Virus record (IMG/VR): IMGVR_UViG_3300035210_000052
Location: 1 to 47,328 of that record
DNA: 47,328 nucleotides
DNA from: a virus
Strand: one strand, 5' to 3'
The position numbers and the translations under genes are program-made. Shown here piece by piece: positions 3,703-35,382 of the stretch. Position 1 is the stretch's first letter. Every line of letters begins with the position of its first letter. The notes under the pieces were generated by a model. That model did no database searches and was not told where the DNA came from. It saw only the letters and a list, made by a program, of their open reading frames with translations.

Positions 3703-5502
3703 ATGCCCGTCACGATCACACAGAAGGTTGCCTGGCAGGGCCTCGGTGCCTTCAGCACCCTGAACTACAGCGCCACGACCGCCAATGCAGGCGAGATCTG
3801 GCTGGTGGTGACCTACACGCCAGACAATGGCGGGTTCACCTCTGTGACGGATTCACTGTCCGTACCGTGGGCGCGACTTGCCGGCGCCAATGCGGCCAAG
3901 GGAACCACCATCTGGTGGAGCGTGCGTCCCACTAACGCGTCAGTGGTCGTCACCGTCACGCAGGCGTCGGCCACGCCCGGCGCATACACCACGCTTTACA
4001 CCCTCACGGGCGCGCATCCGACGCTCCCGTTCGGGACGGCGGTCGCGGACAACACCGGACTGACTACCGGCACGCCCATCACCGAGTCGTTCACGACGAC
4101 CTACGCGAACAGCACGATGTTCGCGGCGGTGGTGAACTGGGCAAGCGCAGCTATTCTGACGTCCTCAACGTTGACGCAGATCGACACGACCTCGGTCCTC
4201 GGCAAGTCTCTTGCGTCCGGCGCTCAGCCGGGGCCGGTCAGCCCCGGTTCGAGCAATATCCAAATCGCAACGCCGACCGGCGCCCCGACGCCGATCTGGT
4301 ACTTCGCGGCCATCGAGATCAACCCGGACCCGTTCGAGTTCATCAAGGTGGACACTTTCGGCTCCTCGACCAACCGCACGAACTTTCCCGGGAATCCTTT
4401 CGCCGTTACGTCCGGCGACCTACTGGTCATGACGCTCCAGGGGAACGGCAGTAGTCAGGCCGTCGCCGACTCCGTGTTCGGCAGTTGGACGCGCGTTGCG
4501 GTCGACTGGTCCGCCACCAATGCGATCTGGTACAAGGTCGCCCCGAGTTCGACCACAATAACTGTCACCTATACGGCAGGCACCACGGGGCAGGGCCATT
4601 TCGATGTCTTTCGCATTCCCGCGCGGTCGGGCGGATCGGCGTCGATTGGTGCGACCGCAGGTTCACCAAGCAGCACCACCTCCACGAACTACAACGCCAA
4701 CGTCCTCACGAACACCACGGCGAATAGCCAACTGTTGATCGGGGCGGGCAGCGGCGGAGGTAACGCTCTCGCCACTACGGCAGACTGCTATAACTACGGC
4801 ACCTATAACTTCTCGTTCGTTTCCGGATGTTCGGGCGCACGTCGGAACGCCACGATTGCGGCGCAGACCGTGAATCTGACCGGCGTGTCGGGTTCCACGT
4901 GGAACTGGGCCGCCGTTGAGATCATCGCCCCGATTGTCATTGTCACTCAGGCGCAATCCGAGACCTGGACCGCAACGGACGCCAGTCCGGCCAGTCACGA
5001 CAGGGCTGCCACTGAGTCAATGGTCGCGAGTGACGCGACCCCACCTAGCCTGATCACGGTCGACGCCCTACAGGTGCAGTCCGAGTCGATGACCGCACTG
5101 GACGACTTCACGGCCATTGCGCTTCAGCAGACCGTGGTCGACAACGAGCCCTTCGGGTTCGCGGAGAATGCTCCGGGCGGGGAACAGATCCAGGGCGCCA
5201 CCGAGGACTCGTTCGGCTTCACCGACGACAACGGGCAATTGCTCAATGCGACCTGGGTGACGTTCAGTCCTCCGGGAGTCGAAGGCATCCGGGACACCAC
5301 GCACCCGCTCTTCGCGCGGATGCATGTCGACCGTGGTGTCTCCGTGCTGAAGATCGGCGGGTTCTACAGGCAGGTAGAGGAGCCCTCTACCGAAGACCTC
5401 CTGAGTGCCACCGAGGTCTACCTCGGCGGCCACGAGTACCGCATTCCGCAGTACATCGGAGATGACCTGGTCGCTGCCGGATACGGCCCGTACATCATCT
5501 AG
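3703..5502 (+). CDS. Large beta-rich decoration or fibre protein with duplicated domain
   Basis: 599 residues. Two related beta-sandwich modules lie at about 1-205 and 215-410: each has a segment like WLVVTYTPDN or LLVMTLQGNG, then PWARLAG/SWTRVAV, then IWWSV/IWYKVA, then a ligand-type WYFAAIEI/WNWAAVEI ending. An Asp/Glu-rich linker (about 415-510, with repeated ESMTALDD-type units) leads to a C-terminal cap of about 80 residues ending YGPYII. The duplication is visible in the protein. A surface fibre or capsid decoration role is inferred from module type and place in the late block. Confidence 0.65.
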   Translation: MPVTITQKVAWQGLGAFSTLNYSATTANAGEIWLVVTYTPDNGGFTSVTDSLSVPWARLAGANAAKGTTIWWSVRPTNASVVVTVTQASATPGAYTTLYTLTGAHPTLPFGTAVADNTGLTTGTPITESFTTTYANSTMFAAVVNWASAAILTSSTLTQIDTTSVLGKSLASGAQPGPVSPGSSNIQIATPTGAPTPIWYFAAIEINPDPFEFIKVDTFGSSTNRTNFPGNPFAVTSGDLLVMTLQGNGSSQAVADSVFGSWTRVAVDWSATNAIWYKVAPSSTTITVTYTAGTTGQGHFDVFRIPARSGGSASIGATAGSPSSTTSTNYNANVLTNTTANSQLLIGAGSGGGNALATTADCYNYGTYNFSFVSGCSGARRNATIAAQTVNLTGVSGSTWNWAAVEIIAPIVIVTQAQSETWTATDASPASHDRAATESMVASDATPPSLITVDALQVQSESMTALDDFTAIALQQTVVDNEPFGFAENAPGGEQIQGATEDSFGFTDDNGQLLNATWVTFSPPGVEGIRDTTHPLFARMHVDRGVSVLKIGGFYRQVEEPSTEDLLSATEVYLGGHEYRIPQYIGDDLVAAGYGPYII

Positions 5503-11707: not shown

Positions 11708-11749
11708 TACAGTTTTCAAGCAGTTGTATCCGCAACTGTGCAAGAAGAA

Positions 11750-11790
11750 AGCCCCCTCCGCGACCCTAGCGGAGGGGGCTTTCCTTGCTT
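11750..11790 (+). terminator. Rho-independent terminator of the late virion block
   Basis: A 12-bp stem AGCCCCCTCCGC/GCGGAGGGGGCT (11750-11761 with 11769-11780) is followed by TTCCTTGCTT. It closes the long rightward virion transcript 42 bp after the last gene. Confidence 0.85.
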
Positions 11791-12070
11791 GAGAGCAGGC
11801 AGGTGGGCGGCATCGGGTTATGGAGGGAAACCGAGCACGTACCTCTCCCTGAGGCTGTATCCGCAGCTTGTCAGGGATACCACGACCGGGTCAGTGGGGG
11901 GATTCGGCCATGGCACCTTCGCTCCGTAGGGGCAGGAGGCCTGACCCCTCGGTGACGTTAACCCATCTCTCTTGCGCGCTCGCCCGGGGATCGAACCCCG
12001 GAGCCCCGCAGATCTCTTCTCGATCCCTCAGGGTGCTTCCTGCGCGAGCTGAGTCAAGAGTGCTTCCCTC
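11791..12070. other. Structured non-coding stretch with tRNA-like T arm on the minus strand
   Basis: No convincing gene is seen. On the minus strand CCGGGG-TTCGAT-CCCCGG (about 11984-12002) looks like a tRNA T arm. It is enclosed by two further long-range pairings: CTCTTG (11969-11974) with CAAGAG (12055-12060), and GCTCGC (11978-11983) with GCGAGC (12044-12049). A five-pair stem with a 7-nt GAGAAGA loop lies between. It does not fold as a normal tRNA: position 33 is not U and the D arm is missing. It may be a decayed tRNA, an attachment-site remnant or a structured RNA near the integrase genes. Confidence 0.4.
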
Positions 12071-12865: not shown

Positions 12866-14056
12866 ATGGCATCCATACGCGAGTACGAGACCAAGGCCGG
12901 TAAGCGGTGGGAGGTCCGCTGGCGCGAGCCCGACGGGACGCCGACGGGACGCACGGCCAGCTCCGAGTCGGAGGCCAAGAGGATCAAGGCGGACGCGGAG
13001 CGGCGGGTGCGCAGGCTTCGAGCGGAGGCCGCCGACTCGGGCATCAACCCGACGGACGTCGGACTGATCGGCGCTGACTTCCGCACCGTGGCCCTGAAGC
13101 GCATGGAGCTTGTCCGAGACCCTGCAACCAGGAAGGCGAACCTGGCCCGACTGGAGAACCACGTCTTCCCGGTGATCGGCTCCAAGCCGATCACTATGGA
13201 CGCGAGTGATCTTGCGGCGTGCATCCTGTCCTGGTCCAGCCAAGCGCACAGCACGCAAGCCACGCTATTCCGAATCGTGTCGCCCGTCTTCACGTACGCA
13301 ATGGAGCGCCGTGCCATCACGAGCAATCCCTGCAAGACCGAAACCGTGAAGAACGTCCGACCCAAGGCGCCGAAGCGGCGGATCTACGCATGGTCCAACG
13401 AATGGGTTACCGGTGTCGTGAAGTCGATTCGCCCGGACCTTGCCATCTTCCCTCTACTGGCCGCATTCTGCGGCCTCCGTCAGGGGGAGATCTTCGGGCT
13501 GTCGCCCGATGACATCGTGATTAACGAATCGGGAGAGCGGGTCATCCGCGTCCGCCGGCAGATCTCAGATCAGGGTCGCCACATGTTCAAGGCACCGAAG
13601 CACCGTGGCGTCCAGGACGACCCCCGAGAGACCCCGTGCCCCGATTACGTATGGGAAGCCATTCAGGCTTACATGGAGGACTACCCGCCCTGCCCCGTGA
13701 CGCTGCCCTTCGCCAAGGGCGACGATTCGGAACCGCTCCCTCGGACGGTGCGATTGTTCCTGACGACCAATCGTCGCAACGCCTGGGACAGCGAAACATT
13801 CAACAATCATGTTTGGCATCCGGTGCGGGCTGCGGTCGGCATTCCGCAACTAAACGAGAACGGCAGCCATGCCCTGCGGCATTGGTTCGCTGCGACGCAA
13901 CTCACCAATGGAACGTCCGTCACTCAACTCGCCGCATTCCTTGGGCATTCGACGCCCGCATTCACAATGCAACAGTACGGTCGATACGCGAAGTCATCGG
14001 ACGTGGCAACGGCGGCCATGGATCGGCTGGCCCGGACTATGACCGACGGCGCTTAG
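12866..14056 (+). CDS. int: Tyrosine integrase
   Basis: 396 residues. An N-terminal AP2-like arm-binding part (REYETKAGKRWEVRWREPDG) leads to a core-binding SAM-like region (about 70-170) and a catalytic domain with R205 (CGLRQGE), a Lys in the KAPKHRG segment, H335-x-x-R338 (HALRH), H361 (LGHS) and Y371 as likely nucleophile. It would integrate phage DNA at an attB with host factor help. The putative attP lies directly upstream. Its last 20 bp overlap the excisionase-like gene on the other strand. Confidence 0.92.
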   Translation: MASIREYETKAGKRWEVRWREPDGTPTGRTASSESEAKRIKADAERRVRRLRAEAADSGINPTDVGLIGADFRTVALKRMELVRDPATRKANLARLENHVFPVIGSKPITMDASDLAACILSWSSQAHSTQATLFRIVSPVFTYAMERRAITSNPCKTETVKNVRPKAPKRRIYAWSNEWVTGVVKSIRPDLAIFPLLAAFCGLRQGEIFGLSPDDIVINESGERVIRVRRQISDQGRHMFKAPKHRGVQDDPRETPCPDYVWEAIQAYMEDYPPCPVTLPFAKGDDSEPLPRTVRLFLTTNRRNAWDSETFNNHVWHPVRAAVGIPQLNENGSHALRHWFAATQLTNGTSVTQLAAFLGHSTPAFTMQQYGRYAKSSDVATAAMDRLARTMTDGA

Positions 14057-14396: not shown

Positions 14397-15383
14397 TCAG
14401 CCGCTAATCGCCCTCACGTTGTCTGCAACCGGCGTGAACATCCGCTGCCCTCGGAAGATCTTGTCCCGCTGGACGCGGTCCACGCGAAGATCGAGATACC
14501 GCTCGGTCATGGTCACGCTCTCGTGGTGCAGCCACGTCGACACCGTGCGGATGGCACCGTCATGGCCCCGGTCTGACAGCTCCTCGTACATGGCCCGCGC
14601 CGCGCTCCTGCGGAGCGTGTGACCGCCCTCCCGGCTGCCCGGCTCTGCCGGGTACCCTGCGCGCCCTAGGACGGCTTGGATCACGTCGGCCAGGCGTGAC
14701 AGCGGGGCAGTGGGAACCAGGACCCTAGAGGACCCCTCAGGGCCTCCCCAGCGGTTGTTCGTGGCGAGCTTCCTGGGGTGCAGGTAGTAGCCGGGCGCCA
14801 GCCCGCCCATCTCTTCGGTGTAGAAGGTCATCCAGCGGCGCAGCTCATGATCCAGCTCTTCGCAGATCGGCATGGAGTCGCGGTCGGTGGTCTTCGAGAT
14901 CGTGACCCGGACGAACCCTGCGGCCAGGTCGACATCACCGACCATGATCTTCTGCGTCTCGCTGGCGCGCGTCATGAGGTAGAACCCGGTAGCCACGACC
15001 ATCCGCTCCAGCGGATGATCGGCGCAGTCCAGAACGCGGGCGAAGTCCCCACGGGGGATGAGCACTCCCTGCCGGGGCATGATCTTGTGCCAGCGGCGGT
15101 CGGCCAGCGGGTCGACGTCCATGTACTGCCTCGCGCGGGACCACTTGATGAACGCCTTGGTCGTGGACAAATCGGTGTTCAGCGTGGACCTGGCACAGGT
15201 CCGTGCCCTGACGGCCACGAACCGGTCGAACGCTTGCGCCGACAGCTCACGGCTGTCGATCTCGCCGGTCGCGTCGAGCAGAGCCCCGAGGACCCGTACG
15301 TCGTTGCGCAGGGTGTTGCCGGCGAAGCCCGAGGCTTCCCGGGCGGCCAGGTATTCGGTGATCACTTCACGGAGTAGGGGCAT
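14397..15383 (-). CDS. Second tyrosine recombinase, XerC/D-like
   Basis: 328 residues, leftward. A SAM-like core-binding domain (about 1-105) without an arm-binding extension precedes a catalytic domain with R139 (LMTRASE), K164 (ISKTTD), H255-x-x-R258 (GHTLRRS), H286 or H287, and Y296 (TERYLDL). All catalytic residues are present. The lack of an arm-binding domain and the XerD-like N-terminus suggest a recombinase for dimer resolution, for Xer-site integration or for inversion, rather than a lambda-type integrase. Having a second intact enzyme on the opposite strand is unusual. Confidence 0.88.
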   Translation of the reverse strand: MPLLREVITEYLAAREASGFAGNTLRNDVRVLGALLDATGEIDSRELSAQAFDRFVAVRARTCARSTLNTDLSTTKAFIKWSRARQYMDVDPLADRRWHKIMPRQGVLIPRGDFARVLDCADHPLERMVVATGFYLMTRASETQKIMVGDVDLAAGFVRVTISKTTDRDSMPICEELDHELRRWMTFYTEEMGGLAPGYYLHPRKLATNNRWGGPEGSSRVLVPTAPLSRLADVIQAVLGRAGYPAEPGSREGGHTLRRSAARAMYEELSDRGHDGAIRTVSTWLHHESVTMTERYLDLRVDRVQRDKIFRGQRMFTPVADNVRAISG

Positions 15384-15498: not shown

Positions 15499-15915
15499 AT
15501 GGGCAAGCAAGTTCTGAGTGAGCATCAGGTCGGCAAGCTCGTTGAGCGAGGGATGACTCCCTCGCAGATCGCCGACTGGTATGCCAAGCACCGCAACATC
15601 CAGGTGACACCGCAGGCGGTGTCCATGCACCTGTCGCGCCGTGGTATCGAGACCGGTCTGAAGAACAGGCATGCGGATCTTCTGCCATGGGTGCTCGCCG
15701 TCGAGCACCGCAACTTGTATGCGGCCAAGATGTTGAGGTTCGAGTCGCGGAGACGTAACGGTGAGGAGCTTCCCGAGTACGCCTCAAGCAAGCTTGAGTC
15801 CTGGCTCTTGATGTTGAAAGAGCGAAAGCTTGTCGTCGCGTACAGCCCCACAGGGGGCTGGACGTACGTCGCGCGTAAGCGCAGCGACAAGGACATCATC
15901 CGTCAGCCCCGCTGA
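15499..15915 (+). CDS. HTH DNA-binding protein, repressor candidate
   Basis: 138 residues. Residues about 6-50 hold a helix-turn-helix: LVERGMTPSQIADWY, then VTPQAVSMHLSRRGI as recognition region. A charged central helix follows, then a small C-terminal beta part (KLVVAYSPTGGWTYVARK). It lies between the recombinases and the DNA-metabolism operon, just upstream of tandem 12-bp repeats. This is where an immunity repressor or a Cro-like switch would be expected, but no homology to a named repressor is claimed. There is no strong ribosome site, so it may be weakly translated or leaderless. Confidence 0.65.
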   Translation: MGKQVLSEHQVGKLVERGMTPSQIADWYAKHRNIQVTPQAVSMHLSRRGIETGLKNRHADLLPWVLAVEHRNLYAAKMLRFESRRRNGEELPEYASSKLESWLLMLKERKLVVAYSPTGGWTYVARKRSDKDIIRQPR

Positions 15916-15963
15916 CGCGGGTCCTCGCGCGCGTGCGCGCGGCAAGTTCTCTTGCAACACAGA

Positions 15964-15998
15964 AGCGGTTGGCCTAAGGGCCAACCGCTCTTTCTGTT
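15964..15998 (+). terminator. Rho-independent terminator, part of a possible attenuator
   Basis: An 11-bp stem AGCGGTTGGCC/GGCCAACCGCT (15964-15974 with 15979-15989) is followed by CTTTCTGTTTT. A competing pairing exists: CAGAAGCGGT, overlapping the 5' arm (from about 15960), is complementary to ACCGCTTCTG at about 16011-16020. Another hairpin, GGCAGCCC/GGGCTGCC, follows at 16024-16043, and GC-rich hairpins lie before it at about 15925-15954. Confidence 0.8.
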
Positions 15999-16047
15999 TT
16001 ACTGCGCAGGACCGCTTCTGCATGGCAGCCCTTAGGGGCTGCCTGTA

Positions 16048-21877: not shown

Positions 21878-22167
21878 GCACCGAAGAGTCTGCGGCAGAC
21901 AGGGTGGCCGACGCGCTGCGGCAGTGCATGCAGGCCATTGTCACCGAGTTCGCCGAGCTTCTGGGTGGGGCAAGCCTGGTGGGTGACATCGTGGTTCTGA
22001 TGGAGTGCCACACCGGGGACGGGGCGACCGTCATGCGGCACTTCGACTCGGGCGTTCCGAGCTGGCGGCAGCTCGGGCTTCTGGCCTCGGCCTCGCAGTC
22101 CCTTCAGACCGAAGAGTTCATCATGGCCATGTCTGGTGGCGATTCCTGTGGCGACGAAGATGCGTGA
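21874..22167 (+). CDS. Hypothetical helical protein
   Basis: 97 residues from GTG. Two helices (ADRVADALRQCMQAIVTEFAE and SWRQLGLLASASQSL) flank a central hydrophobic segment GDIVVLMECHTGDG. No motif is recognised. It overlaps the sigma-like gene downstream by 8 bp, so the products are probably coupled. Confidence 0.55.
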   Translation: MSTEESAADRVADALRQCMQAIVTEFAELLGGASLVGDIVVLMECHTGDGATVMRHFDSGVPSWRQLGLLASASQSLQTEEFIMAMSGGDSCGDEDA

Positions 22168-22774
22168 GCTGGACATCGAGACCGTCATGAGGACGGCCAT
22201 TCTGGAGGTCCTGCGCTGGTACTCGCTGGTCGATGGTGATGAGCTGCGCCAGACCGGTGAGCTGTACCTGCTGGAGCACCCGCAGAGGGTCGAGAAGTAC
22301 CAGAACATGCGGCACCCGGCGACGGCTGCCCTGTACCTGCGGCGTGACCTGACGCGGGTCATGTACCGGGTGGCTCGGGAAGAGAAGGCGGCCCACGAGG
22401 GCTACTCGCCGGTCGATGAGTTCACGTACACGGCTGACGCCATTCAGTACAGGGGCCTCATCGCGGAATGCCTGCGGGCCATCGTGACCGGGACGCGGGA
22501 GCAGGCTCAGGGTCCTTCCGAGGGCGGGCGCAGCACGGCCGATCCGGCCGTGGTGGCCATGAACTTCGCGACGTCCCTGCTGGACATCGAGCGGGGCTGG
22601 GAGCGGCTGGACGCTGCGGACCGACACCTGTTGGCCGCGTACTTCGTGTACGGCGTCACGGCTGACGAACTGGGGCAGTGTTTCGCTCTGACCGACCGAC
22701 AGGTGTTCAACATGCTGAAGTCGGCACTGCGGCGCCTCGTGGCGCCACTGAACGGGGGACAGATCAGTGCATGA
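22160..22774 (+). CDS. Sigma-region-4-like transcription regulator
   Basis: 204 residues from ATG at 22160, with upstream GTG alternatives. The C-terminus (about 150-200) reads LDAADRHLLAAYFVYGVTAD, then ELGQCFALTDRQVFNMLKSALRRL, the pattern of a sigma-70 region 4 helix-turn-helix. The N-terminal two thirds is helical and has no clear region 2. It might redirect host RNA polymerase to late promoters or bind DNA as an Arp-like late regulator. Confidence 0.65.
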   Translation: MRELDIETVMRTAILEVLRWYSLVDGDELRQTGELYLLEHPQRVEKYQNMRHPATAALYLRRDLTRVMYRVAREEKAAHEGYSPVDEFTYTADAIQYRGLIAECLRAIVTGTREQAQGPSEGGRSTADPAVVAMNFATSLLDIERGWERLDAADRHLLAAYFVYGVTADELGQCFALTDRQVFNMLKSALRRLVAPLNGGQISA

Positions 22775-31479: not shown

Positions 31480-31974
31480 CTAGCGGTCGAACAGAGTGAA
31501 CGCGTAGCGCGTCCCGTGAAGGTGACTGCCGCACCCGTCGCACGACCGTGAGCTGTACTCGCGTGTCTCGCAGTCGCAGTCGGAGTCGCGCGGGCCGTCC
31601 GGCCCGTTGGGGCATTCCTCGGCGTGCTCTCCACCCATGGCGATGCGGTGGTAGTGGCCCTCCCACAGAGCGAACGGAGCAGGCTCGGAAGGGTCACCAG
31701 CGTGTGACTCGGTACGGATGTCCACACCGTTCGCATGCATGAGCATGCACGTGGGGCAGACCCAGAGATCGGACATGACCACGGGTCGGTCGCCGTGAAC
31801 TTCGGTCACGAGTCGGTGCGTGAGGACCTTACGACCGTGCTGCGGGTCGATGTGATTCAGGTCCGCGAGGACTCGGAGCATCGACAGGGATGCGGTTGCC
31901 AGGATCTCCCGCGCGTGGCTTGCGCCGTCGGACTGCTGCAACAGATCGTTAAGGATCTCTGACTTGCTGGCCAT
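31480..31974 (-). CDS. Hypothetical zinc-binding protein
   Basis: 164 residues from ATG at 31974. A helical N-terminus (SKSEILNDLLQQSDGASHA) and a region with VCPTCMLMHANG and several histidines (EGHYHRIAMGGEHAEECP) lead to DSDCDCETREYSS and SCDGCGSHLHG. Nine cysteines plus histidines suggest two or more zinc sites. It belongs to the leftward small-gene block. Family unknown. Confidence 0.65.
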   Translation of the reverse strand: MASKSEILNDLLQQSDGASHAREILATASLSMLRVLADLNHIDPQHGRKVLTHRLVTEVHGDRPVVMSDLWVCPTCMLMHANGVDIRTESHAGDPSEPAPFALWEGHYHRIAMGGEHAEECPNGPDGPRDSDCDCETREYSSRSCDGCGSHLHGTRYAFTLFDR

Positions 31975-31976
31975 GA

Positions 31977-32114
31977 TCACTCGCCTGCCAGAATGCCACT
32001 GCACTGAAGCAGGGTCACAAGCTCACGGGCCCACTGCTCGGCCATTTCCTGCTTGCCGCACTGCTTATACGCAATGGCCTTCGCCAGTGCCCTATTGATC
32101 TCCGTGCGATCCAT
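31977..32114 (-). CDS. Small helical protein (45 aa)
   Basis: 45 codons from ATG at 32114 with GGGAG upstream. It encodes MDRTEINRALAKAIAYKQCG, then EMAEQWARELVTLLQC, a two-helix bundle-like peptide. The stop lies two bases before the next ATG in the TGATCATG arrangement. It is the first gene of the leftward block after the 1-kb control region. Confidence 0.65.
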   Translation of the reverse strand: MDRTEINRALAKAIAYKQCGKQEMAEQWARELVTLLQCSGILAGE

Positions 32115-32296
32115 GATCCAACTCCCTGTTTCGATGAGACCGGGCCGAACAATGCCGACACTCCTCTTTGTGGCTCCAACGTGTCAATGGGTTTCACCCG
32201 TTCGGCTCACCGATCGGGGACCATGATCCATCTGCCACCCGTGTGCACAGGAGAGCAGGGGACGGGAGCACGCACGGGTGCCAGCCACGATCATCG

Positions 32297-32312
32297 ATAC
32301 CCCCGGGGGTAT
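32297..32312. promoter_or_regulatory. CsoR-operator-like 16-bp palindrome
   Basis: ATACCCCCGGGGGTAT is a perfect 16-bp palindrome. The TACCC...GGGTA half-sites resemble operators of CsoR-family copper sensors in actinobacteria. It lies about 180 bp upstream of the leftward block. Regulation by a host CsoR is inferred from the pattern only; a phage repressor could equally bind. Confidence 0.4.
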
Positions 32313-32454
32313 GCGGTCACGCGTGGTGGAGGTAGGGACATGGGTCTGGACAGTGAGCAGAGTTGGCCCATGATCGGTGATCTTGGCTCACCCGGGTAAC
32401 AGATCATGTTGAAGAGCTCCGACTTTCGTGCAAGTCTGCCCAACCATGATCAAC

Positions 32455-32473
32455 TAAGGCTAGCCTAACCTAA
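32455..32473. promoter_or_regulatory. DtxR/IdeR/DmdR-type iron box
   Basis: TAAGGCTAGCCTAACCTAA agrees with the actinobacterial iron-box consensus TTAGGTTAGSCTAACCTAA at 17 of 19 positions, counted by eye. DtxR-family repressors bind this site with ferrous iron. It lies in the control region upstream of the leftward ArdA-containing block, so host iron status might control early or lysogenic expression. Confidence 0.6.
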
Positions 32474-32586
32474 CTTGATCTTGCTCAGCCCATGATCCAC
32501 TGTCCGTTTCGTCCGCTTGACCCCGGGTTGTTATATTCCGTGTGCCCCCCTCCCCGGCTACTATCACCCAAGATTTTTTTTCCCAG

Positions 32587-32608
32587 CAGGGGGGCGGCAG
32601 GGGGGCGG
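32587..32608 (+). repeat. Tandem G-rich 11-bp repeat
   Basis: CAGGGGGGCGG occurs twice without a gap, just after a T8 tract. The two G6 runs and GG pairs could form a G-quadruplex on the plus strand. The AT tract beside G-runs is also reminiscent of unwinding or pause sites. Function is not known. Confidence 0.55.
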
Positions 32609-32709
32609 TGGAACGCAACGTTGCAGGTCAGGCGCTTGTGGCCTGCCCCCGAGCCGAGGTACATCAACGGTGTGATGCAGGTCTCACTGCTTAAGTGGTG
32701 GTTCGCATT

Positions 32710-33037
32710 TCATTGAACTGATTTCAATGAGACCTAGTGGTGTAGAAGTTGTGAGCGAACCTGGTCGGTTCGCGAATAACAACGGCAGCGGTCATCCGCA
32801 TGACCGCGTTGCCTCTACGGCGGGAGCAACAAGCTCCCGCCTAGTACATAAACAGCAAGCAAGGGCGGCCCGGGGCCGCCCCTACTGGTTACAGAAGCAT
32901 CCCCTGTAGGGGATGCCGCTGAAGCCCTTCGCAGGGCACCCGAAGGTGCCCCACGCAAGAACGACCCCGCAAGGGGTCGTCGGAAGCTGCGCTTCCTTCC
33001 TCCTGAATAACAACCCCGTCAGCAGACGGGGTTGTTA
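32710..33037 (+). ncRNA. Array of eleven hairpins, possible structured RNA
   Basis: Eleven inverted repeats follow each other: 32710-32730, 32755-32773, 32788-32807, 32819-32841, 32863-32881, 32897-32916, 32924-32937, 32934-32951, 32961-32980, 32982-32996 and 33008-33037. Stems are 5 to 13 bp with short loops such as CCGC, TGTA, CGAA, GCAA and AGCA. Sequences differ, so this is not a simple repeat array. The seventh and eighth share bases and exclude each other. The last is a 13-bp stem that may act as terminator. No open frame explains it. It could be a noncoding RNA, a DNA-structure origin or a packaging signal. Confidence 0.55.
33008..33037 (+). terminator. Strong 13-bp hairpin, terminator-like
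   Basis: TAACAACCCCGTC pairs with GACGGGGTTGTTA around AGCA. The downstream CCTTTTT run starts about 10 bp later, so the fit to a classical terminator is imperfect in the rightward direction. It closes the hairpin array 110 bp before the first virion gene. Confidence 0.6.
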
Positions 33038-33146
33038 CGCGTGGACCTTTTTCGCGGACAGGTAGGTCAGATCTCAACACCGTGATGAGCCGACGCTGCG
33101 CGACGGCTCAGCGGTCCAGCTCTCCGAAACCGAAGGTGAATCAACC

Positions 33147-33464
33147 GTGGCGAACCAGCTCCCCTGCACGATCACCGTGAACGCCACGGCTACCGCCGTG
33201 CAGTTCGTCGGACATCACTGCGAAGTTGAGGCGTACAACCTCGGCACCGTTCCGGTGTATGCCCGCGCCGATGGCACGGCCGCCGCAGTTGGTGCGGATC
33301 TGAACTACTGCCTTCCGCCGGCAATGGGCACGTTCGTGGACATCGAGACCGTTCCTTCCGGCGGCTCTCTGGCCAGCGACGCGGCTACCCCGGTGACGAA
33401 CCTGTCGCTGATCTCCACGTCCGGCACGTCACTGGTCCATTTCTTCGAGTGTTGCTGCGACTGA
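33147..33464 (+). CDS. Small structural-type protein before terminase
   Basis: 105 residues from GTG. A beta-rich sequence: TITVNATATAVQFVGHHCEV, then YNLGTVPVYARADGT, with a cysteine cluster (FECCCD) at the end. It resembles small beta-sandwich decoration proteins by composition. It is the first gene of the late block, 34 bp before the terminase. Family not recognised. Confidence 0.6.
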   Translation: MANQLPCTITVNATATAVQFVGHHCEVEAYNLGTVPVYARADGTAAAVGADLNYCLPPAMGTFVDIETVPSGGSLASDAATPVTNLSLISTSGTSLVHFFECCCD

Positions 33465-33498
33465 ACCGGGCCGTTCCCCATCGATGCGAGGAGGCCGG

Positions 33499-35382
33499 GT
33501 GCCTCCGCTGAAGCTCACTGCCGCTGAAGCCAAGGCCGGTGTGATTGAGGCTGTCGCCAAGGGGTCGTCGGTCAACGCCGCGCTGGCCCTGGTGGGCAGG
33601 TCCATCAAGACGCACGAGAATTGGCGTTCCAGGGACCACGAGTACGCGCGGCTTCTCGATGAGGTGCGGCACTCGCGCAAGGTGGCCATCGACAAGGGCG
33701 CCCTCGCCGATGAGCTGGCGCTCACGTTCGCCGAATGGCGGCGGCGCTATCTGCGCCGCGAGACCTACCCGCACATGCAGAACCTGATCGACGTTGTTGA
33801 GGGGCGCGACCCGTCCTGGTTGCACCCGTCGATGACGTGGGAACCACGTCGGCGTAACCGCACCATCATTAACATCCCCCCGTACCACGCGAAGTCCCAG
33901 ACGCTCACCGTGGACTACGTCACCTACAAGCTCTGCCAGAACCCGAACTTCCGTGTCGTCATCGTGTCCAAGCGGCAGGAGCAGGCGAAGAAGTTCCTCG
34001 GGCAGATCCGTCAGCGCATGACCTCGAACCTCTTCACGGCTCTCCAGGTTGCCTTCGGCGGCACCGAGGGATTCAAGGGTGAGGGAACGGTCTGGCGGGC
34101 CAACATGCTCTACCTCGCCGGCAGGGATTCGGACGCGGCTGACGCGTCCATCGAAGCTCTTGGTCTCGGCGGGCAGATCTACGGAACACGCTCCGACCTG
34201 ATTCTTCTGGATGACTGCGTCGTTGGCTCCAACGCCAACGAGTACGAAAAGCAGATCAACTGGATGGAGTCCGAGGTAGAGAACCGTGTGTTCGACGGCT
34301 CCATCGTCATCATCGGTACCCGGCTTGCGCCGACCGATCTGTATGCGGAGCTGCGCAACGGGGACCGCTACCTGTCCGGGAAATCTCCATGGTCCTACCT
34401 GCGTATGCCCATGGTGCTGGAGACCGCAGGGAAGCCCGAAGACTGGGTCACGTTGTGGCCCAAGAGCCACATCCCGATGGACGAGAACGACGGGACCCCC
34501 GGGCCCGACGGCATGTTCGCGGCATGGGACGGCGTACGCGCCAACCAGACCCGCGACTCCAAGCCGCCGAAGACCTGGAACCTCGTTTACCAGCAGGCCG
34601 ACCAGGCCGAGGACGCGGTCTTCGACCCCAAGTGCGTGATGGGTTCGGTGGACCGGCGCAGAAAGCCGGGACCGCTACGTGCAGGTGGCTGGGGCCACCC
34701 GCGTAACGGCATGGAAGGCCAGTACGTCATCGCCTCGATGGACCCCGCCATGGCGGGGGACACCTTCACGTTGGTCGGAGCGGTCGACCGCAAGGACCAG
34801 ATGCGCCGGGTCATGAATGCATGGGTCGAAACTAGTCCGACCCCGGCATATATCCGCGAACTGATCGAGCGGGTCACCGACGAATACTCCGTCAATGAAT
34901 GGGTGATCGAGAAGAATGCGTTCCAGCTCTTCCTTGTTCACGACGAGGCCATTCAATCGTTCTGTCGTTCGCGCGGCGTGCGGATCACCGAGCACTATAC
35001 GTCTCGGAATAAGCAGGACCCTGACTTCGGGGTCGCGTCGCTCGCACCCCTCTTCGGATCGCTGCGTCGCATTCACGACGAATCTGGGCGTGCTGATCAT
35101 CAAGGGGACAATCTCTTCGACCTTCCTGATCCCGACCAAAGCCAGGGCGTCAAGAGTCTCATTGAGCAGCTCACGCTCTGGCAGCCGGGCAAGCAGGGCA
35201 AGCAACTGAAGATGGACGGGCCGATGGCCCTGTGGTTCTTCGAGCTGCGCGCCCGGGAAATCCTGGGACAGGGTCGGCAGAAGACCCAGCACTTCATGAA
35301 CAACCCGTACCTTTCACGGTCCGACGCTTCGCGCCGCACGGTGATTCCAATGGATTCATACCGGGAGGGCCGCCTTGGCTGA
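33499..35382 (+). CDS. terL: Terminase large subunit with fused N-terminal HTH
   Basis: About 627 residues. GTG at 33499 is preferred because AGGAGG lies just upstream; ATG at 33484 would add five residues. An N-terminal helix-turn-helix (SSVNAALALVGRSIKTHENW) looks like a small-terminase DNA-binding part. The ATPase has a Walker-A-like PPYHAKSQTL (about 127-136) and Walker B LILLDD (about 234-239). The nuclease domain starts near ASMDPAMAG with a metal-binding Asp. It pumps DNA through the portal and cuts it. No separate small subunit was found, so the fused HTH may replace it. Confidence 0.9.
   Translation: MPPLKLTAAEAKAGVIEAVAKGSSVNAALALVGRSIKTHENWRSRDHEYARLLDEVRHSRKVAIDKGALADELALTFAEWRRRYLRRETYPHMQNLIDVVEGRDPSWLHPSMTWEPRRRNRTIINIPPYHAKSQTLTVDYVTYKLCQNPNFRVVIVSKRQEQAKKFLGQIRQRMTSNLFTALQVAFGGTEGFKGEGTVWRANMLYLAGRDSDAADASIEALGLGGQIYGTRSDLILLDDCVVGSNANEYEKQINWMESEVENRVFDGSIVIIGTRLAPTDLYAELRNGDRYLSGKSPWSYLRMPMVLETAGKPEDWVTLWPKSHIPMDENDGTPGPDGMFAAWDGVRANQTRDSKPPKTWNLVYQQADQAEDAVFDPKCVMGSVDRRRKPGPLRAGGWGHPRNGMEGQYVIASMDPAMAGDTFTLVGAVDRKDQMRRVMNAWVETSPTPAYIRELIERVTDEYSVNEWVIEKNAFQLFLVHDEAIQSFCRSRGVRITEHYTSRNKQDPDFGVASLAPLFGSLRRIHDESGRADHQGDNLFDLPDPDQSQGVKSLIEQLTLWQPGKQGKQLKMDGPMALWFFELRAREILGQGRQKTQHFMNNPYLSRSDASRRTVIPMDSYREGRLG

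Follow-up and report, generated by a model that had tools for sequence, protein, structure and literature searches.

What is a tightly packed run of hairpins doing in the noncoding DNA just ahead of a phage terminase gene? The question is raised by positions 32710-33037 of IMGVR_UViG_3300035210_000052, a soil phage sequence of 47,328 bases (hereafter the window, meaning the whole stretch that was analyzed) that represents the nearly whole genome of a Beephvirinae-like actinophage. Its terminase large subunit (TerL) shares 40-42% identity with the TerL proteins of Streptomyces Beephvirinae (such as Immanuel3 and Dennebes) and of Caudovirales sp. ct2KA10, and identity reaches 59% among IMG/VR contigs. 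We found no DNA-level similarity to phage records at E 1e-5; nearer relatives sought through the portal gene yielded a single 61% match (L128, the same contig as L037), and those sought through the 105-aa open reading frame (ORF) past the hairpins and through an early gene yielded none. The window encodes a portal, a major head protein, an endolysin, replication genes, two tyrosine integrases and a repressor, and because of the integrases and repressor the phage is probably temperate. The integrase genes (12866-14056 and 14397-15383) lie on opposite strands and adjoin the repressor gene (15499-15915), and a sequence near 11985 that resembles a tRNA 3' end by eye may be an attachment site. Elsewhere in the window, perfect long hairpins at 15963-16000 (a gene-block boundary) and 11743-11790 (after a late gene) look terminator-like, and 22136-22774 gives a weak match to sigma-70 region 4 (E 0.003, below the Pfam cut-off) and could encode a phage sigma-like factor.

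The hairpin array and its surroundings

The hairpins lie in a 949-base gap between leftward genes, which begin near 32197, and rightward genes, which start at 33147. The features of this region are as follows.

32517-32537, plus strand: conserved motif TTGACCCC-N5-TGTTATATT, present once in the window and common to relatives L036 and L006
32558-32565, plus strand: CTACTATC block, common to L036 by eye; possible, unproven -10 box
32671-32686, plus strand: CRP-like site TGTGA-N6-TCACA with 1 mismatch, the sole one in the window (1.1 expected by chance)
32710-32730: hairpin 1, 8 bp, loop CTGAT
32755-32773: hairpin 2, 7 bp, loop TGGTC
32788-32807: hairpin 3, 8 bp, loop CCGC
32819-32841: hairpin 4, 9 bp, loop AACAA
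32863-32881: hairpin 5, 8 bp, loop CGG
32897-32916: hairpin 6, 8 bp, loop TGTA
32924-32937: weak 5-bp hairpin overlapping hairpin 7, pair probability 0.00 on both strands; left out of the count
32934-32951: hairpin 7, 7 bp, loop CGAA (TTCG on the minus strand)
32961-32980: hairpin 8, 8 bp, loop GCAA (32969-32972)
32982-32996: hairpin 9, 6 bp, loop TGC (GCA on the minus strand)
33008-33037: hairpin 10, 13 bp, loop AGCA; arms formed by inverted copies of GGGGTTGTTA, a near-match to the motif at 32525
33147-33464, plus strand: first ORF past the array, 105 aa, phrog_32632 (function not assigned in phrog)
33484-35382, plus strand: terminase large subunit, by homology

Between 32700 and 33040 there are ten hairpins with perfect stems (stems of 6-13 bp, loops of 3-8, 82 stem bp in total), while 1000 dinucleotide shuffles gave a mean of 0.48 and a maximum of 4, which bears out the claim of a preliminary description that random DNA would not reach such density. 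No other 350-bp stretch of the window is as dense, the runner-up having 7 hairpins per 350 bp. Stems of at least 7 bp occur in nine of the ten hairpins, none of the nine with an internal mismatch or wobble, and each of the ten forms with a pair probability of at least 0.96 on either strand. Over 32680-33050, RNAfold z-scores are -11.4 (plus strand) and -13.9 (minus strand); with DNA folding energies the array gives -12.7 and -10.6. Among 314 plus-strand 300-nt segments of the genome the array has the lowest z (-9.9); other strongly structured stretches come near it, at 15751 (-9.5), 27151 (-8.7) and 11551 (-8.2), with fewer perfect hairpins.

The preliminary description had counted eleven clean hairpins; its coordinates and ten perfect hairpins stand, and the eleventh is the weak stem at 32924-32937. 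The switch it had proposed between this stem and 32934-32951 is not borne out, since the 5-bp partner has a pair probability of 0.00 on both strands (-8.1 versus -14.0 kcal/mol for the overlapping hairpin). The GCAA tetraloop it had pointed out is present. Its view that the stretch has no coding frame agrees with the short ORFs there: the longest (32727-32909 on the plus strand, 32889-33080 on the minus strand) do not exceed 63 aa, and we rejected the array as coding sequence on this ground. We likewise rejected a tRNA, a tmRNA or an Rfam RNA, for which there was no match at gathering score; the only tRNAs of the window are two at 629-776.

Other sites lie upstream. Six direct copies of CCATGATC fall within 31971-32497, ahead of the leftward genes, and may be operator or iteron sites; the whole window holds 11 copies on both strands against 1.94 expected. 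CRP-like sites were sought with TGTGA-N6-TCACA, which we take to be the CRP consensus. Six cultured Beephvirinae leaders (L003:304-374, L028, L029, L030, L031, L032) each have two such sites in tandem, 46-57 bp apart with 0-1 mismatch (the Immanuel3 genome has just these two), and L006, L036 and ct2KA10 have one perfect site apiece.

Arrays in relatives and the terminal-repeat motif

Where does the array lie relative to the genome ends? The cultured relatives Immanuel3, FlowerPower, Manuel and Stella have direct terminal repeats of 253-276 bp at their genome ends, and in these four of five cultured relatives the right end of the repeat falls exactly 31 nt past the GTTGTTA of the motif; the record of the fifth, Abafar, has a 396-bp repeat instead. 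For the window, the terminal-repeat cut is predicted near 32557, in which case the array would lie 150-480 bp in from the left end of the packaged DNA; relative to the motif, the array begins 190 bp and ends 520 bp downstream, between divergent gene blocks. Among the functions offered in the preliminary description, a packaging signal before the terminase fits this position best, near the cut motif, with a leader RNA staying as rival.

Similar arrays recur in relatives. In the first set they were found in L036, L008 and L010 (TerL identities of 59, 59 and 41%), with unrelated sequences, and many other loci had few hairpins; our first survey gave at least 6 hairpins per 350 bp in 8 of 78 loci, the window counted, and most relatives had no array. 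A contig of Streptomyces hoynatensis (L117) has 18 hairpins of at least 7 pairs within 681 bp (3920-4600) ahead of its terminase gene and, as in the window, this pre-terminase array is the genome-wide maximum of hairpin density. The contig has 46,451 bases with ends that overlap by an identical 21 bases, making it circular; it carries an integrase and a WhiB-like gene (L117, L119-L121) and is apparently a circularized temperate phage. A search with the L117 terminase opened up a sister clade in which 15 of 41 loci have at least 9 hairpins per 350 bp; with the near-copies L151 and L159 taken out, 13 distinct loci remain (9-12 hairpins per 350 bp). Their arrays are centered on the motif, with 2.1-2.8 hairpins per 100 nt from -500 to +200, 1.6 per 100 nt from +200 to +300, and about 0.4-1.4 farther out. 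Mean z left of the motif is -11.3/-10.9, versus -2.5/-2.6 in TerL coding sequence (10 loci, L152, L154 and L167 being excluded here and from the comparison of strands by DNA folding energies). The hairpin array is a real, unusual and recurrent family trait. Two further observations concern individual loci: L010:460-651 holds two copies of a hairpin pair that have almost the same stems, differ in their loops and show one A-T to G-C double change, and the terminase at L008:448-3369 has a long in-frame insertion that appears intein-like in alignment.

What is conserved in these arrays appears to be their folded shape and not their sequence. In L036 and L131, whose TerL proteins are 87% identical, the upstream flanks are similar until a shared CTGCCTATATATAAGTGAG, and past it the arrays hardly align. 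We compared hairpin positions in four aligned pairs of loci (L169/L205 not among them). In L155/L158, 12 hairpins (of 18 and 19) occupy the same aligned place, against a shifted null with a mean of 2.7 and a maximum of 7; in L152/L154, 10 hairpins (of 15 and 13) match, against a mean of 1.3 and a maximum of 5. The 7 matches in L163/L166 lie within the null (mean 3.6, maximum 10), and the single match in L036/L131 is not above it (mean 0.7). Stems had changed in 21 of the 30 position-matched hairpins, perfect pairing having been required for a match and double changes being partly inflated where loop lengths differ. Column-wise covariation over five aligned array pairs is weak: pairing is kept in 105 of 224 double changes (slid controls: 132 of 337), and there are 251 one-sided breaks. 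The clearest covariation comes from two leader hairpins in seven cultured relatives, where 9 of 14 pairs changed on both sides and 91.3% of cells are paired, against at most 3 doubly changed pairs in slid controls. The check for compensatory changes that had been proposed for this locus was thus made on relatives, because none is close enough to the window for its own array; it bore out pairing in the two leader hairpins and hairpin positions in two of the four aligned pairs, and failed in the other two. Support for conservation of form without sequence is good in the sister clade and modest in the window's own lineage.

Wobble pairs, loops and the choice between DNA and RNA

Does the array work as DNA or as RNA? 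Its stems and loops can be compared with those of hairpins that act as RNA. In five arrays (46 hairpins), 38 stems are perfect, 1 has a G-T, 2 an A-C and 5 another mismatch, whereas among 104 terminator-like hairpins from the same loci the counts are 58, 20, 6 and 20 (Fisher p 0.0043 for G-T and 0.0016 for perfect stems), a comparison biased by perfect stems being how the arrays were first found. The terminator-like hairpins, which act as RNA, show the expected sense-strand wobble; the arrays are almost without G-T. Sister-clade arrays likewise show no strand preference in wobble (to the left of the motif, G-T 4 and A-C 6; to the right, 1 and 2). These left/right counts, and those of triloops, exclude L151, L153 and L161, where no motif was found, and L159, a copy of L158; the wobble counts additionally exclude L167.

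Sister-clade loops on the left side of the motif are strand-biased. Of 80 triloops, 28 are GNA and 5 TNC (p 6.6e-5); GNA exceeds TNC in 10 of 13 loci and the reverse holds in none. The commonest are GAA (14 of 80), GCA (6), ATC (5) and GGA (5), and GNRA loops are biased 8:0, while coding controls lack any bias (GNA versus TNC 8 to 10, GNRA versus its mirror 3 to 3). C(GNA)G triloops are stable in DNA. Left of the motif, it is the plus strand that would end 3' at the right end of the genome, and the loop orientation agrees with that of telomeres. On the right of the motif the sister-clade arrays have no loop bias (GNA 1, TNC 1), nor do the five window-type arrays (GNA 0, TNC 1, n=4 triloops); in the window array only 2 of 10 hairpins have triloops, one of them GCA on the minus strand, so that its loops are not mostly GNA loops of 3-4 nt. 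DNA folding energies show no strand preference. Taken together, strand-biased loops and little wobble would fit single-stranded DNA better than RNA.

Possible roles of the array

We tentatively favor, at somewhat less than even probability, the reading that the array is a DNA-level genome-end element of a Beephvirinae-like actinophage that works as single-stranded DNA. The array occupies the point where divergent gene blocks meet and lies a short way inside the predicted cut. Genome ends or concatemer junctions could be exposed there through incomplete replication, terminal-repeat duplication, or packaging and entry; exposed palindromes would snap into closely packed hairpins, much as the 3' overhangs of Streptomyces telomeres do, and the folded hairpins might protect the end or act as fold-back or binding sites for end processing. 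We infer the cut near 32557, the formation of single strands there and the function alike. The strength and place of the array argue for this reading, as do the spacing of motif and repeat end in four of five cultured relatives, sister-clade arrays centered on the motif with positions kept while stems changed, the near absence of wobble, and telomere-like GNA loops left of the motif. A structured leader RNA of the late operon is a close rival, to which we give a considerable if lesser probability: a transcript from upstream of the array would fold into the hairpin string ahead of the 105-aa gene and terminase, and would shield the untranslated leader from Rho or RNases, or carry antitermination. 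The two stand close because the loop bias is absent right of the motif, which is the window array's side, and because a leader would also fit the position, which is bounded by the divergent junction on one side and the first late gene on the other. The arrays of L036 and L131 begin just past a conserved TATATATAAG box, and the two covarying hairpins of the cultured relatives follow a TATA-like box and precede TerL; both fit leader RNA and count against the DNA-end reading, and the 8:0 bias of GNRA loops would be expected from RNA as well. DNA folding energies favor neither strand, and cultured Beephvirinae manage terminal repeats without arrays (2-4 hairpins), so an array is not essential for terminal repeats. 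Against a leader stand the scarcity of G-T wobble and lack of strand preference, unlike the terminator-like hairpins of the same loci, the reach of sister-clade arrays to ~500 nt on the other side of the motif, and the lack of a sigma-70-like promoter beyond chance directly upstream of the array.

Three other explanations are much less probable. That the array is a series of transcription terminators or attenuators separating gene blocks is improbable: the hairpins are GC-rich and some actinobacterial terminators lack T runs, but here no T run follows the hairpins on the plus strand, terminator-like sites in 31900-33600 number 3 versus 1.2 expected in shuffles, and at a divergent junction there is no read-through to stop. 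We rejected this candidate for the missing T runs and the near-shuffled number of sites. Template switching can keep palindromes perfect, and at an often single-stranded locus it might do so without selected function; the perfect stems and rapid double changes in close relatives (GCCCCC/GGGGGC to GGGCCT/AGGCCC, same loop) are in line with this equally doubtful idea, but separate lineages have arrays at the same place, positions are kept in two of four aligned pairs, and strand-biased loops would require another cause. Least probable is that an extrachromosomal prophage replicates from the array as an RNA- or DNA-based origin. In favor of this, L117 is a circular contig, and the RNA-based origins of extrachromosomal mycobacteriophage prophages, likewise actinophages, are 400-500-bp noncoding stretches (PMC7157519); but the window and L117 carry tyrosine integrases, and the origin of Alma is far less structured than the array (6 hairpins in 497 nt, z -3.4).

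Returning to the DNA-end reading, how far does the array resemble known genome ends? The loops of Streptomyces telomeres are reported to have 3-4 nt, most commonly GAA, GGA and GTA, with little stem similarity (PMC8743542), and the hairpins to be formed by the 3' overhang (PMC8743542, PMC4513846). The window and its relatives share the tightly packed palindromes with dissimilar stems, and sister-clade loops left of the motif are GAA, GCA, GGA and GTA on the would-be 3' strand of the right end, a partial likeness at 28 GNA loops in 80. The window array differs in lacking loop bias and in belonging to a phage whose ends are predicted to be direct terminal repeats made by terminase cutting. Its place near the physical end of a linear genome is a prediction from the terminal repeats of relatives; within this contig it is internal. 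Streptomyces telomeres also have terminal and telomere-associated proteins (Tpg/Tap); 10 L117-contig proteins scanned with NCBIfam gave no such match, which counts against the DNA-end reading. The late leaders of Immanuel3, Manuel, FlowerPower, Dennebes, Abafar, Stella and RosePharie occupy the same pre-terminase place, and the window array, like them, lies between terminal-repeat motif and terminase; they keep pairing by double changes, with two clear covarying hairpins versus ten or more in arrays. The T7 left end is the model for hairpins in terminal-repeat duplication. The idea, given in PMC4281155, is that synthesis can fold back at a palindrome lying to the right of the repeat; the T7 left end has no array, a further point against the DNA-end reading. 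The injection stop signal of the unrelated phage T5 is described in PMC13250531 as noncoding DNA close to the terminal repeat that contains inverted repeats and palindromes, and the window array is similar in this. In a literature search conducted mostly outside subscription journals we did not find hairpin arrays at Beephvirinae or Streptomyces phage genome ends. Unlikely, in our estimate, is the wider proposal of a Streptomyces-type phage family with fast-evolving telomere-like arrays around the packaging cut that work as single-stranded DNA, so that tailed-phage ends would be organized like host chromosome telomeres and the window array would be the left-end counterpart.

The arrays represent a noncoding element whose form and place are conserved while its letters turn over, so that sequence searches miss such elements. 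Cultured relatives exist (Immanuel3, Manuel, Abafar), and a strain of S. hoynatensis carries a relative with an 18-hairpin array. Should the array act as RNA, it would represent an extreme leader of the late operon; if it acts at the DNA level, it would tie phage end processing to Streptomyces telomere biology and provide tractable phages for the study of hairpin-rich ends.
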